NCBI RefSeq assembly: GCF_014643835.1 | Contig: NZ_BMKD01000008.1 | Coordinates: 186,001 to 250,000, forward strand | Source: Mucilaginibacter rubeus | Lineage (GTDB): Bacteria; Bacteroidota; Bacteroidia; Sphingobacteriales; Sphingobacteriaceae | Length of the DNA stretch: 64,000 bases | Direction: 5' to 3' | Part shown: positions 29,672 through 43,986 of the stretch, one piece after another | Layout of the letters: each line of letters starts with the position of its first letter | How positions within the stretch are numbered: position 1 is the stretch's first letter | Program-made: the position numbers and the translations under genes | The notes under the pieces: generated by a model | Database searches by the model: none | What the model saw: the letters and a program-made list of their open reading frames with translations, nothing else | What the model was told of the DNA's origin: nothing

Positions 29672-31750
29672 ATGCTAAAACGCTTTACTCTTATAACTCT
29701 TATACTTGCTGCTTTTACTGCAACTCACGCACAAAATAAGATCAAACCTAAGAGAGACACCACCGAACTTAAACCGGTGATCATCAAAGGTTACCTGAGC
29801 GACCAGCCTGTGATAAGTGTACCGGCGTCGGTAAGTGTGCTTAATGCAGCCCAGCTCAGGATCCAGCCTGATAATTCATTTGTAAATGCCTTAAATACGG
29901 TTCCGGGAGTACGTACCGAGGAGCGTTCGCCGGGCAGCTATCGTTTATCCATCAGGGGCAGTTTATTACGTTCGCCTTTTGGCGTGAGGGACGTAAAGAT
30001 CTATTTTGACGATATCCCGCTTACCGACGCCGGCGGCAACAGTTATTTAAATACTATTGATATTGCTTCGATACAAAAGGTTGAAATATTAAAAGGGCCG
30101 GATGGCAGCTTATTTGGGGCTAACTCGGGCGGTGTCGTGATTCTTAGTCCGCTTAACCGTTATAACGACAGCACCTATATTTCGGCGGGGGTAAACGGTG
30201 GTTCGTACGGGTTGTTTCATGAAAAGGCAGCAGTGCAATTAAAAACTACCAATTACCTGCTCGACATTAACCAAAGTTTTCAAACCTATCATGGCTACAG
30301 GCAAAACAGCGATACCCATCGCAACTACCTGCAACTGGCCGATAGCTGGAATTACAGCGGTAAAAACACACTAAAAGCATTGGGGATTTATTCGGATCTT
30401 GCCTATCAAACACCGGGTGGCTTAAACCTGGCCCAGTATACCGCCAATCCGCGATTAGCCCGCCAGCCTACGGCAACTTTGCCGGGGGCTATTCAGCAAC
30501 GGATAGGTATTACTACCAAGATGTATTTAGGCGGCCTAACCAACGAATATCATTTTAACGACCACATTCGCAATGTACTGGCTGTGTTTGGCAATCACGT
30601 TGATTTCGCCAATCCGTTCATTACTAATTATGAGCAACGCAGTGAAAATACCTATGGTTTCCGTACTTATTTTGAACTAACCGGCGATAAGAAACCCAAT
30701 TTAGACTGGAAAGTTGATCTCGGTTTTGAATGGCAGCAAACCAACTCGCACATTGCCAACTATGGCAATAAGAAGGGGGTAAAAGATACCGCCCAAACCA
30801 TTGATGATATCCACACCAACCAGCATTTTGTATTTGCCCGTTATGCTGCTGATGTGTACAAACGCCTGCATATAGAGGCCGCGGTAAGCTTAAATGATTA
30901 TGGTTATGACTTCAAAAACCTGTATCCGCTTAATCAAAACAACTTTACTAACCGCAACTTTAGCGCACAGCTAATGCCGCGGCTGGCTTTGTCATACCAG
31001 ATCATTAATCCCTTTGCATGGCGGGCAAGCGTAAGCCGCGGTTACTCGAGCCCTACCACTGCCGAGGTGCGGCCAACCGATAACATTGTAAACACCAGCC
31101 TGCAAGCCCAATACGGCTGGAACTACGAAACCGGGTTCCGCCTGCGCAACAGCGATGAAACTTTTATGCTTGATGCATCAGTTTATTATTATCGTTTAAA
31201 TAATGCCATAGTACGTCGCCTTAATGCCAATGAAACCGAGCATTACGTCAACGCGGGTGGTACTAACCAGTTAGGCACCGAAGCGTCATTATACTATTGG
31301 ATTATTCGCCCAAACAGGTATAACTTCATCCGTGGGCTACAACTCAACGAATCTTTTACGTACAGTCATTTCCGGTTTAGGGATTATATGGTTACCAATG
31401 CCAATTATTCGGGTAACAGGCTAACGGGCGTGCCTAAAAACGTATTTGTAAGCAGCGTACAGATCAGGTTTCCGGAAAGTATTGCATTATTTGTTCAGCA
31501 TACCTTTACTTCAAAAATTCCGCTGAACGATGCAAGCAACGTATATGCGCCAAAATATAACCTGTTGCAGTCCCGCGTTAGCTATCAGCCAACCATTGGC
31601 CGTAAAAATCGTTTTGAAATATTTGCTGCCGCGGATAATTTACTGAATCAGAAATATAGCCTTGGTAATGATTTGAATGCTGTAGGTAACCGATATTATA
31701 ATGCGGCTCCGCTGAGGAATTACTCGGTTGGGATGAATTTTATGTATTAG
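29672..31750 (+). CDS. TonB-dependent outer-membrane receptor
   Basis: 692 aa from ATG at 29672, the start of a signal peptide (MLKRFTLITLILAAFTATHA). Plug domain about 40-165 with SVSVLNAAQLRIQPDN, NTVPGVRTEERSPG, SIRGSLLRSPFGVRDV and VEILKGPDGSLFGANSGGVV. A 22-strand barrel region follows and ends in aromatic YSVGMNFMY. It lacks the CarboxypepD-like N-terminal extension of SusC, so it is more like siderophore/cobalamin receptors. A cobalamin-binding protein gene lies 3 kb downstream, but a direct link is only suggestive. Confidence 0.92.
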   Translation: MLKRFTLITLILAAFTATHAQNKIKPKRDTTELKPVIIKGYLSDQPVISVPASVSVLNAAQLRIQPDNSFVNALNTVPGVRTEERSPGSYRLSIRGSLLRSPFGVRDVKIYFDDIPLTDAGGNSYLNTIDIASIQKVEILKGPDGSLFGANSGGVVILSPLNRYNDSTYISAGVNGGSYGLFHEKAAVQLKTTNYLLDINQSFQTYHGYRQNSDTHRNYLQLADSWNYSGKNTLKALGIYSDLAYQTPGGLNLAQYTANPRLARQPTATLPGAIQQRIGITTKMYLGGLTNEYHFNDHIRNVLAVFGNHVDFANPFITNYEQRSENTYGFRTYFELTGDKKPNLDWKVDLGFEWQQTNSHIANYGNKKGVKDTAQTIDDIHTNQHFVFARYAADVYKRLHIEAAVSLNDYGYDFKNLYPLNQNNFTNRNFSAQLMPRLALSYQIINPFAWRASVSRGYSSPTTAEVRPTDNIVNTSLQAQYGWNYETGFRLRNSDETFMLDASVYYYRLNNAIVRRLNANETEHYVNAGGTNQLGTEASLYYWIIRPNRYNFIRGLQLNESFTYSHFRFRDYMVTNANYSGNRLTGVPKNVFVSSVQIRFPESIALFVQHTFTSKIPLNDASNVYAPKYNLLQSRVSYQPTIGRKNRFEIFAAADNLLNQKYSLGNDLNAVGNRYYNAAPLRNYSVGMNFMY

Positions 31751-31783
31751 ATGGTTAATAGTTGATGGTTCATAGATCATAGT
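31751..31783 (+). repeat. Word-repeat related to the insertion inside truA
   Basis: Begins ATGGTTAATAGTTGATGG and runs on to TTCATAGATCATAGT. Nearly identical to one arm of the 66-nt insertion in truA (43711-43776); the other arm of that insertion is a diverged inverted copy of the same word. It sits immediately after the TonB receptor stop codon. Confidence 0.7.
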
Positions 31784-31832: not shown

Positions 31833-31922
31833 CATGTCATTGCGAGGAACGAAGCAATCGCACGGAAGCAGAGCGGCTCTGTAATGTATGCGATTGCTTC
31901 GTCGTTCCTCCTCAATGACATG
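31833..31922. repeat. GTCATTGCGAGGAACGAAG palindromic repeat, copy 1
   Basis: About 90 bp with imperfect inverted arms: GTCATTGCGAGGAACGAAG on the left, and complementary GCTTCGTCGTTCC...AATGAC on the right. A second member lies at 52877-52970. This word family is widely dispersed in many bacterial genomes. Confidence 0.8.
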
Positions 31923-41210: not shown

Positions 41211-43091
41211 TTATCTCGCAATCCCTGCCGAATTAAACTGCAAATCATACAATTTGCGGTAGTGACCGTTCTCAATTTTAAGCAACTCCTGGTGGGTACC
41301 CATTTCCATGATCTCGCCATGGTCAAGTACAATGATCCTGTCGGCATTTTGAATGGTGGAAAGCCTGTGGGCTATCACTATGGCCGTACGGCCTTCCATT
41401 AATTTATTGATGGCATTCTGGATCAGGATCTCGGTTTCTGTATCAACAGATGACGTAGCTTCGTCCAAGACCAGGATTGCGGGATTATAAACCAGTGCCC
41501 TGATAAACGAGATTAGTTGCGATTGCCCGGCCGAAAGTGTTGAGCCGCGTTCCATCACATTATAATCGTAGCCACCGGGCAGGCGTTCGATAAAATCATG
41601 CGCGCCAACATCTTTGGCTGCAGCTATGATCTGCTCGCGGGTGATATTGGGATTATTGAGGCTGACATTATTGGCAATGGTATCGCTGAACAAAAACACA
41701 TCCTGTATCACAGTTGCTATCTGCGAACGCAGGTAGTTTACGTCATAATCATGGATATCGTGCCCATCAACCCTTACACAGCCTTTGCCAATTTCATAAA
41801 AACGGTTCAGGATATTAATGGTTGATGATTTACCTGCGCCGGTTGCGCCTACCAAAGCCAGGGTTTCGCCGGGCTTGATATGGAAGCTGATGTTTTTCAG
41901 CACCCAGTTTTCATCATTATAGGCAAACCATACTTTATCAAAGCTGATATCGCCCTGCAGCCTGCCTGTTGTAAGTGTGCCTTTATTTTCGGCCACCTCG
42001 TCGGTATCCAATACTTTAAAAATCCTGTCGGCACCTACCATACCCATTTGTAGGGTGTTAAATTTATCGGCCAGCTGGCGGATAGGCCTGAACAACATAT
42101 TCAGCAATACAATAAAGCTGGTGATCAATCCTGGAGTAATACCCTTACCTGAAGCAGAGATAGTTAACATTTGACTATCAGACAGCATCCTTTTGCAGCC
42201 ATACCAAACCAGCAAGCCCATACATATGGCAAACAGGATTTCAACCACCGGAAAAAATATCGAGTAATACCAATTTGAGCGGATGTTAGCATCACGGTAC
42301 TTTTCATTCACGGCTTTAAACTTGCGCATCTCCTGGTCTTCACGGGCAAAGATCTGGATCACGCTGATACCTGAAATATGTTCGGCCAAGAAAGTATTGA
42401 GCCGTGCCACCTGCGTACGCACCTCCTGGAATGAGGACTTAATAGCCTCCTTAAACACATAGGTTGAAGCAAACAGGAAAGGCATCGGAATGAGCGTAAT
42501 CAGGGCCAGTTTCCAGTCTTGCCAAAGCATATAGCCTATCACAGCAACCACCAACAGCATATCACCCATGATAGAGATCAACCCTTCCGAAAAAATATCG
42601 GCAATAGTTTCCAGGTCGGACACCGTACGGGTAATAAGCATACCGATAGGCGTACGGTCGAAGTATTTTAATCTTAAACTGGTAATGTGGTTAAAAATAT
42701 CGATCCTCAAATCGCGGATCACATATTGGCCCAGCGCATTGGTTAAATAAGTTTGGTAGTACTGCGCAATAGTTTGAATGAGAAGCTGTGCTATCATGAG
42801 CTCAACCATAAAAACCAACCCATTATAATCATCGTTCAAAATATTAACATCCAATGTACGTTGGATCAGGATTGGCTGCAGCAAAGCATTGGCTGCTATA
42901 AAAATGGTGAGGAAAGTAGCTATAACAAAGGTTTTATTATACGGCTTAACGTAATGCATTACCCGGCCCAGTAGCTTCCAGTCGAGGGCCTTTCCGGTTA
43001 CGACCCCTGAAGGGGGGGCTGCTTGCTTGGTTGCTCCCTCATTTGCTGAGGAGAGAGTTTCCTGTTTATTATCTTTTTCTTCTTTAGCCAC
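41211..43091 (-). CDS. ABC exporter, fused permease and ATPase
   Basis: 626-aa half-transporter with a GTG start. A charged N-terminal tail (about 1-35) precedes the six-helix membrane domain (about 45-345) and an NBD (about 375-615) with GATGAGKSST, a non-standard signature LSAGQSQLISF, ILVLDEATSSVD and IVIAHRLS. Multidrug/lipid exporter class, possibly pairing with the half-transporter at 2.9 kb. A full promoter (43097-43127) leaves only 5 nt before GTG. Confidence 0.92.
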   Translation of the reverse strand: MAKEEKDNKQETLSSANEGATKQAAPPSGVVTGKALDWKLLGRVMHYVKPYNKTFVIATFLTIFIAANALLQPILIQRTLDVNILNDDYNGLVFMVELMIAQLLIQTIAQYYQTYLTNALGQYVIRDLRIDIFNHITSLRLKYFDRTPIGMLITRTVSDLETIADIFSEGLISIMGDMLLVVAVIGYMLWQDWKLALITLIPMPFLFASTYVFKEAIKSSFQEVRTQVARLNTFLAEHISGISVIQIFAREDQEMRKFKAVNEKYRDANIRSNWYYSIFFPVVEILFAICMGLLVWYGCKRMLSDSQMLTISASGKGITPGLITSFIVLLNMLFRPIRQLADKFNTLQMGMVGADRIFKVLDTDEVAENKGTLTTGRLQGDISFDKVWFAYNDENWVLKNISFHIKPGETLALVGATGAGKSSTINILNRFYEIGKGCVRVDGHDIHDYDVNYLRSQIATVIQDVFLFSDTIANNVSLNNPNITREQIIAAAKDVGAHDFIERLPGGYDYNVMERGSTLSAGQSQLISFIRALVYNPAILVLDEATSSVDTETEILIQNAINKLMEGRTAIVIAHRLSTIQNADRIIVLDHGEIMEMGTHQELLKIENGHYRKLYDLQFNSAGIAR

Positions 43092-43127: not shown

Positions 43128-43167
43128 TCTCATCCACATTATCCACCATTGTTCCCCCTTCAGGGGG

Positions 43168-43986
43168 TTAGGGGGCTAATGGAGTGACCAGTTGGTAAGG
43201 ATATTTAACTTCCGTCAAATACAACCCGCAAGCCGGTACGCTGGTGCCGGCATTGGAGCGGTTTTTACTTTCAATAATTTCACGGATACCTTCCGGTTGC
43301 ATTTCTTCCCGGCCAATCATCATCAAGGTACCCACAATGGCCCGTACCATGTTACGCAAAAATCTGTCGGCAGTGATGTGGAAAACAATGCCGTTTTCGG
43401 TTTTCACCCATTCGGCACGGGTAATTTTGCAGTTATTGGTTTTTACCTGGGTGTTTGATTTGCTAAAACAACTAAAATCGATGTACTCCATCATAATAGC
43501 CGCGGCCTGGTTCATCAAATTAATATCAGGCACATCGCGCAATTGCCAGGAAGCCCCTTGCAAAAAAGGGTCTTTATTAAAGTGAACATGATACTGATAC
43601 GAGCGCGATGTGGCATCAAAACGGGCATGCGCATCGGCATGTACCGGGATAATATTTTTTATAGCGATATCAGGTGGGAGCAGGGCGTTGAGGCCCCTCA
43701 CCACCTGTTCATGGTTAATAGTTGATGGTTCATGGCCGTCAGCTTTGCCATGATCTATGAACGATGAACTATTACCTTCAATATCAAAATGCGCAAAAAA
43801 CTCCTTTGCATGTACGCCTGTATCTGTGCGGCCGCAGCCGGTTGTTTCTATGGGCTGCCGTAAAATTGTGCTTAGTGCCTTGTTCAGCAATTCCTGAACA
43901 CTTACGGCATTTTGCTGTATTTGCCAGCCGTGATAGGCGGTGCCGTTGTAGGCCAGTTCAATAAAATAACGCTGGTTGTTGCTCAC
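43168..43986 (-). CDS. truA: tRNA pseudouridine(38-40) synthase with 22-codon palindromic insertion
   Basis: 272 aa with a GTG start. TruA modifies positions 38-40 of tRNA. Conserved blocks are RYFIELAYNGTAYHGWQIQ, TGCGRTDTGVHAKEFFAHFD (catalytic Asp in GRTDTGVHA), RGLNALLPPDIAI and HARFDATSRSYQY. Between HFD and the RGLNALLP block lies an insert encoded by a 66-nt palindrome (43711-43776), exactly 22 codons, related to the intergenic repeat at 31751. The C-terminal residues PLAP and stop are encoded by another repeat-like sequence (43142-43190). The protein otherwise looks intact. Confidence 0.94.
   Translation of the reverse strand: MSNNQRYFIELAYNGTAYHGWQIQQNAVSVQELLNKALSTILRQPIETTGCGRTDTGVHAKEFFAHFDIEGNSSSFIDHGKADGHEPSTINHEQVVRGLNALLPPDIAIKNIIPVHADAHARFDATSRSYQYHVHFNKDPFLQGASWQLRDVPDINLMNQAAAIMMEYIDFSCFSKSNTQVKTNNCKITRAEWVKTENGIVFHITADRFLRNMVRAIVGTLMMIGREEMQPEGIREIIESKNRSNAGTSVPACGLYLTEVKYPYQLVTPLAP
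43711..43776. repeat. In-frame palindromic repeat inside truA
   Basis: 66 nt. One arm starts ATGGTTAATAGTTGATGGTT; the other, 43749-43776, is a diverged inverted copy. The intergenic sequence 31751-31783 matches both arms. Length divisible by three and no stop in the truA frame. Confidence 0.75.

Follow-up and report, generated by a model that had tools for sequence, protein, structure and literature searches.

One loop of TruA in Mucilaginibacter as a probable recurrent landing site for palindromes, mostly of 7-nt words, that are otherwise found between genes

The REP/REPIN and RAYT systems are known as short palindromes dispersed in intergenic DNA, and the heptanucleotide repeats of cyanobacteria go under the name STRR. 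According to excerpts of PMC4679880 and PMC4692102, heptanucleotide repeats with the word TAACTGA occur in Beggiatoaceae, cyanobacteria and five Bacteroidetes (PMC4679880), those with the words GGGAATC and GGGGAYT in Xanthomonas and Nostoc, with Calothrix heptanucleotides also mentioned (PMC4692102), and slippage has been proposed for the origin of such bacterial repeats in both papers. Palindromic elements that are read in frame are best known from Rickettsia, as summarised in part of PMC10969869: in the work of Ogata (2000, 2002) cited there, dispersed palindromic DNA is translated in frame within otherwise normal proteins, and these Rickettsia palindromic elements (RPEs) are about 150 bp long, encode a conserved peptide and occur in many unrelated genes, with nearly half of the copies in open reading frames (ORFs). 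No paper on heptad palindromes in truA or on palindromes of Mucilaginibacter was found, judging by the titles and abstract starts of the open-licence PubMed Central papers listed.

The DNA analysed here, called the window, is a stretch of 64,000 nucleotides from Mucilaginibacter rubeus. An initial annotation had described a 66-nt palindrome inserted in frame inside truA, flanked by the HFD and RGLNALLP blocks of the protein. The element is found at this place and, like an RPE, is a palindromic repeat translated in frame inside an ORF; its palindrome, however, is imperfect and is better described as an array of 7-nt words which begin at 43707. The features of the window are as follows.

43168..43986, minus strand: truA, tRNA pseudouridine(38-40) synthase, an ORF of 272 amino acids (TIGR00071, 168.7 bits, cut-off 142.85)
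43707..43777, minus strand: in-frame heptad palindrome with period-7 segments and inverted repeats, coding for the greater part of the loop NSSSFIDHGKADGHEPSTINHE, which HFD and RGLNALLP enclose
43707..43735, plus strand: arm 1, words GTTCATG, GTTAATA, GTTGATG and GTTCATG
43747..43777, plus strand: arm 2, words of the complementary type (YATNAAC)
43762..43764, minus strand: codon TCG of serine 75, where the last base of one heptad departs from the consensus
31751..31783, plus strand: second copy, one arm only, with 31751–31773 identical to arm 1 of truA
43154..43180, no strand assigned: second repeat kind, a C-rich palindrome of the CCCCCTAACCCCCTGAAGGGGG type at the 3' end of truA, giving its last codons (Ala-Pro) and the TAA stop
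43003..43018, minus strand: CCCCCTAACCCCCTGAAGGGGG-type repeat read in frame close to the N-terminus of the ABC transporter encoded downstream (ORF 41211–43091), giving ..AAPPSGVV..

The unit of the element, which is 66–71 nt long, is a 7-nt word that reads GTTNATR outward and YATNAAC back. Period-7 segments lie at 43707–43735 and 43750–43777, and there is an outer pair of inverted arms of 26 nt (43711–43736 with 43747–43772, 77% complementary) as well as an inner pair of 18 nt (43716–43733 with 43757–43774, 89% complementary). Both the lag-7 and the inverted-repeat signal of the loop gave p=0.003, in each case the floor of 300 shuffles. The TruA blocks on either side are intact, as had been annotated: the GRTD motif, containing the aspartate that is catalytic by homology, is kept, and so are all residues invariant across 42 aligned relatives. 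Alignment places the loop opposite a short segment of E. coli TruA (2nqp) which leads from the strand after the catalytic motif to the next conserved stretch, and the loop would therefore be expected at the surface of the enzyme, away from catalysis. C- or G-runs of at least five were seen at the gene end in 12 of 28 TruA ends read, and the N-terminus of the ABC transporter has APPSGGGGG-like stretches in several relatives, others starting directly at MSEVTGKALDW.

The same word had also been annotated in intergenic DNA at 31751–31783. The match to arm 1 is indeed exact over 23 nt, but this copy is a single arm. An ORF ends with its stop codon at 31750, and this copy begins at the very next nucleotide; the matching place in a related genome (locus L090 of G001) holds the same half copy. 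An 18-mer of the arm, with up to three mismatches allowed, has exactly two matches in the window (43711 and 31751), as against 0.07 expected. Beside the half copy, at 31833–31922, lies another dispersed palindrome of the CATTGCGAGGAACGAAGCAATC type, and no 11-mers are more frequent than its words in the 800 kb examined of genome G014.

The copy in the window is one member of a heptad family that is dispersed. Dozens of related copies are present in each near genome, mostly outside genes: 54–77 matches to the window element were obtained in each of G001, G014, G072 and G032 (E<=10; arms and strands counted separately and truA copies included). Whole intergenic copies consist of two to five words, a spacer and inverted words. 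Of the 149 genus genomes, 130 have the strict three-word GTT pattern and 110 a GTC sister pattern, the reversed-pattern control being zero in most of them. Apart from the C-type loops described below, the repeats resemble the known heptanucleotide repeats in having a 7-nt tandem unit (arms of two to five words) and in being dispersed and mainly intergenic, and the loop SVISEQRSAVSYQ of locus L150 is similar to LSVISYQ, the peptide into which reversed TAACTGA repeats translate according to an excerpt of PMC4679880. The known repeats, in contrast, are direct repeats of fixed words, whereas here the arms are inverted, positions 4 and 7 are variable and several word kinds occur per genome; repeated residence inside one housekeeping gene is a further difference. 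More families of 7-nt words (TTGACTC, GAGATNT and AAAGC types) were noticed in intergenic DNA of G050, in L284 near position 994 (G050:C5 near 260994) and in other pieces of this genome, among them a TTGACTC-type array of about 20 units.

One intergenic copy was compared across eight genomes and found in all of them, degenerate in one, so heptad repeats can be old and static; neither a filled site with its exact empty counterpart nor a target duplication was seen in this comparison. Open frames are rare in the dispersed elements. A set of 23 GTT elements, in which the truA copy of G014 is included and some members are orthologues, has 138 strand-frames; just 6 of these are open, and in 17 elements every frame is closed. 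In the window, the sense word GTTCATC departs from the consensus exactly where an A would make the stop codon TAG (residue 75). As the window copy is open and off consensus at the would-be stop while dispersed elements seldom are open, coding copies would represent a filtered or edited subset.

The TruA loop is hypervariable throughout the genus, and what is seen in the window is not one isolated insertion of one repeat. Loops were read at 70 places in genus genomes (including two TruA paralogues, L069 and L070, and one contig end, L068), at 80 named loci and in 20 further relatives. They could be extracted from 162 of 171 loci, the remainder being contig ends or having paralogue-like or unusual motifs, and removal of exact duplicates left 132; two of the nine loci outside the set, L029 and L054, have loops which were read in frame. 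At least six repeat kinds occupy this site, five with heptad words and one with a C-rich palindrome. Besides GTT words there are loops with GTC words (peptides such as SPWSMVDS..LSTIDYG and MDHRPWTMDK), with words of the CAG type (SVISEQRSAVSYQ) and with words of the GAG, AATCC and AACTC types, and the C-rich palindrome loops (CCCCCTGAAGGGGG) yield peptides of the form APQPPEGG..FPLQGV. The loop peptides differ between species. In the 132 loops base identity peaks at lags 7, 14 and 21 only (0.409, 0.370 and 0.339, other lags 0.21–0.30), downstream truA as a control giving 0.249, 0.262 and 0.280 at these lags. With 300 dinucleotide shuffles for each loop, the lag-7 signal was significant at p<0.01 in 66 of 132 loops, an inverted repeat in 48, and at least one of the two in 84. 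The C-type loops have a significant inverted repeat in 15 of 22 cases and a lag-7 signal in none of the 22, so that a heptad structure is not evident for this type.

In 25 loops from outside Mucilaginibacter (Daejeonella, Sphingobacterium, Flavobacteriales and others) the length is 36–39 residues, and the lag-7 signal was absent in all 20 of these that were tested. Of the full-length TruA matches in other families, 41 of 42 are 12–19 residues shorter than the window protein (matched span), the remaining one (G110) being 5 residues shorter; three further families gave partial TruA matches and two none. The 22 residues attributed to the insert by the initial annotation are accordingly not conserved in distant TruA. 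One Flavobacteriales loop (L171) has a significant inverted repeat without the lag-7 signal, which looks like chance at the p<0.01 threshold. A fast-evolving, disordered loop of low complexity which resembles repeats by chance would be an explanation in keeping with the evidently weak constraint on the region and with the 48 of 132 loops that pass neither repeat test. The peaks at lags 7, 14 and 21, the inverted repeats, the exact 23-nt identity with intergenic DNA and the many dispersed relatives in each genome argue against it and make it highly improbable overall, and for the 84 loops with a significant repeat it is already refuted.

The same TruA site holds several different repeat kinds across species, with many switches on the truA tree. 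This tree was built from core truA without the loop (163 rows from 171 loci, 135 after removal of exact duplicates and 133 without the two TruA paralogues). Word classes were set by regular expressions and counted only if the lag-7 or inverted-repeat shuffle test was significant, and several visible C-type remnants (e.g., in L006, L009 and L016) are therefore labelled 'none'. On the 133 rows 55 changes among nine labels were counted, 'none' and 'other' included. The changes amount to 12 for GTT, 25 for GTC and 11 for the C-type (CCC), of which well-supported branches force 11, 14 and 6, respectively; 45 of 130 inner branches are weak. The labels are clustered beyond shuffles (55 changes versus a shuffle mean of 73.4), as inheritance plus turnover predicts. 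In the Mucilaginibacter-centred clade (SH-aLRT 99) 79 of 103 rows have a significant repeat, and 24 of the 48 tree rows without one fall inside this clade. Close kin may differ in kind, such as L011 with GTC and L111 with GTT words (support 97) or the trio of L138, L150 and L157 with GAG, CAG and GTT words (support 100). Some label changes may result from exchange rather than arrival, and some of those between a repeat and 'none' may come from the choice of threshold alone.

Two species suggest exchange, their loop alleles being at odds with the remainder of truA. Among the named genomes scanned, the TruA proteins nearest to that of the window are from M. kameinonensis SCK (92% identity in the best segment) and M. 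gossypii Gh-67 (89%). The 6.8 kb around truA show 94.9% identity between the window and M. gossypii. In its core truA the window shares 91.2% with M. gossypii and 83.6% with M. kameinonensis, whereas in the loop the identity is 66.2% with the former and 88.3% with the latter. Between positions 213 and 285 of the coding sequence, 25 of 26 diagnostic sites of the window truA are kameinonensis-like, the sites just upstream being mixed. M. endophyticus is the mirror case, with a core that is 92.2% kameinonensis-like and 21 of 22 diagnostic sites gossypii-like at 237–310 (own reading). M. gossypii and G072 have loops of 98.7% and cores of 87.3% identity. Homologous recombination of short tracts between species explains such swapped loops more simply than repeated independent insertion, and as the mismatch between loop and core fits recombination, part of the 55 label changes would be exchange and not new arrival.

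Among the genes sampled, which are those near truA, truA is an outlier in its content of period-7 segments. At 51 named truA loci there are 44 such segments in 41 kb of truA (at 34 of the 51 loci) and 40 in 49 kb of intergenic DNA, as compared with one internal segment and five near gene ends in 293 other ORFs (241 kb), all of them neighbours of truA. The lag-7 threshold was 16 of 21, with control lags, because the stricter 18 of 21 fails to detect the element of the window. For G014, 800 kb with 720 ORFs were scanned; of the 33 segments there, six lie in ORFs, namely in truA, near the start of three ORFs, in one ORF of 95 amino acids and inside an ORF of 297 amino acids. On a 769-kb contig of G050 (615 ORFs) the fraction is 11 of 47, with one segment in truA, four in the linker that joins a zinc ribbon to DUF6371 in one gene, five at ORF starts and one in an ORF of 1388 amino acids with weak ATPase matches only. 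ORF starts account for 8 of the 17 in-ORF segments of these two genomes. Control lags gave 1–9 segments in G014 (five lags) and 0–13 in G050 (nine lags). The G050 linker is a second coding niche for heptads. Its gene (L293:16810-18297) contains several in-frame GTC heptad arrays, in which SIVDSPWTMAGKGK is repeated. An apparent match inside an EF-P ORF was discarded as an overcalled start, as the EF-P domain begins near residue 43.

As to the origin of the loop repeats, REP-type elements moved by RAYT (Y1_Tnp) transposases have to be considered, and the palindromes do share with REP/REPIN systems their short length and their dispersal between genes. PF01797 was found in all eight genomes tested, with 46 matches, 30 of which were read; a C-type word lies within 1.5 kb at 3 of these 30 loci. 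GTT or GTC words, however, are within 1.5 kb of none of the 30, and the palindromes seen by eye next to some of the transposase genes are of other kinds, so a RAYT origin appears unlikely; for the heptads it has no support from these loci, for the C-type repeats it may still apply. The heptad architecture and the coding residence are further differences from REP/REPIN. Downstream of the PF01797 match at L246 and L252, inspection by eye showed short palindromes of other types around Y1 transposase genes (e.g., CCGTTGGTTTTAACCAACGG); these may be the REPs that belong to the transposases.

A different proposal is that the heptad arrays are born in place, by replication slippage and hairpin template switching inside truA with a preferred 7-nt step and without insertion; a shared mutational bias or subsequent gene conversion would then account for the likeness to intergenic words. 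The period of 7 common to the heptad kinds fits this, as does the slippage proposed for heptanucleotide repeats (Mrazek 2007, as quoted in part of PMC4679880). So do loop lengths: GTC loops such as MDHRPWTMDK have a total of 38 residues, the same as repeat-free loops, and some heptad loops thus seem to replace ancestral residues, overwriting rather than adding. The loops of the window and of M. gossypii, equal in length and heptad register while many words differ, point the same way. Against birth in place stand the identical words in truA and in intergenic DNA of the same genome, the near absence of arrays from other genes sampled, and the C-type loops, which match whole dispersed elements, both arms and spacer, several at full length, with 70–80% identity. 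A C-type loop gave 52–102 matches (E<=1) in each of five genomes, its own copy and both strands being counted. Birth in place is therefore held as a tentative alternative, and the weight given to it overlaps that of the preferred reading, which allows slippage as one route.

The loop word also tracks the pool of the genome in which it resides. In 76 genomes the median GTC fraction elsewhere was 0.57 for 29 GTC loops and 0.00 for seven GTT loops (p=0.0007, uncorrected for kinship and with these seven GTT genomes only); GTC loops compared with all 32 loops that are neither GTT nor GTC gave p=0.015, likewise uncorrected for kinship. Five rows without a tree label (L029, L054, L231, L236 and L240) were classed by hand for this test. 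M. endophyticus (G032) is an exception, its strict GTC pattern occurring in truA alone (4 of 4 matches), so that the local pool is not the present source there.

Taken together, the loop between the HFD strand and the LNALLP helix of TruA is probably a tolerant and recurrent landing site for dispersed, otherwise intergenic repeats, mostly palindromes of 7-nt words. Copies would arrive by insertion or by template-switch copying of an intergenic element, or would grow in place by slippage of 7-nt units. Only copies that are in frame and free of stop codons would survive, and TruA would keep working owing to the position of the loop at the surface, away from catalysis. Later changes may come about by recombination with other loops or elements, by which a repeat is swapped or overwritten. 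The repeats most likely do nothing for TruA itself, being of selfish or mutational origin and neutrally tolerated.

Alternatively, the hypervariable loop could be kept for a benefit, such as tuning of tRNA binding or phase variation of TruA, since adding or losing a single 7-nt word would put the reading out of frame. Strong coding hairpins were obtained in all four relatives folded (z values of -3.0, -3.6, -8.1 and -10.5), and in Pseudomonas loss of TruA raises the mutation frequency, as stated in an excerpt of PMC7822408, so that an on/off switch could matter. The mRNA hairpin of the window copy, on the other hand, is unremarkable (z -1.12 and -0.58 in two folding runs), the loop shows no conservation of its letters, the genus includes loops that lack a repeat signal, and none of the 132 extracted loops contains a stop, a weak point as extraction itself needs an open frame. 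A selected function is regarded as quite unlikely. It is conceivable, although rather doubtful, that Bacteroidota carry a word-independent system of heptad palindromes, in which one copying mechanism of slippage and hairpin template switching makes, spreads and homogenises inverted arrays, with the TruA loop as a standing coding niche where arrays are overwritten or exchanged between species as cassettes.

The parallel to RPEs drawn by the initial annotation holds insofar as a dispersed palindrome codes for part of TruA in frame. It does not extend to the distribution: several kinds pile up and turn over genus-wide at one loop of one gene, with some alleles swapped, while RPEs occur in many unrelated genes. 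The Mucilaginibacter repeats are mostly intergenic, as seen from the low in-ORF fractions of G014 and G050, and neighbouring genes are nearly free of them. The window element is also less than half as long as an RPE, and there is no common loop peptide comparable to that of RPEs. On these comparisons the data are best read as an RPE-like colonisation of one tolerant loop by heptad palindromes, which would have been filtered for stop-free copies and then swapped or overwritten. What is new is the concentration of RPE-like protein palindromes, mostly made of heptanucleotide words, at one site.

For soil Mucilaginibacter this means that a housekeeping enzyme, TruA, would serve as a recurrent landing pad for repeats which normally reside between genes. 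Repeat kinds have changed many times in this single loop of a conserved enzyme of free-living bacteria, and most of the genomes concerned still carry related words at dispersed sites. This amounts to a natural experiment in which one can ask how DNA of selfish or slippage-born origin gets into proteins, why its unit measures 7 nt and how a protein copes with it. It also cautions that recycled repeat DNA can lie behind a variable stretch of an alignment.
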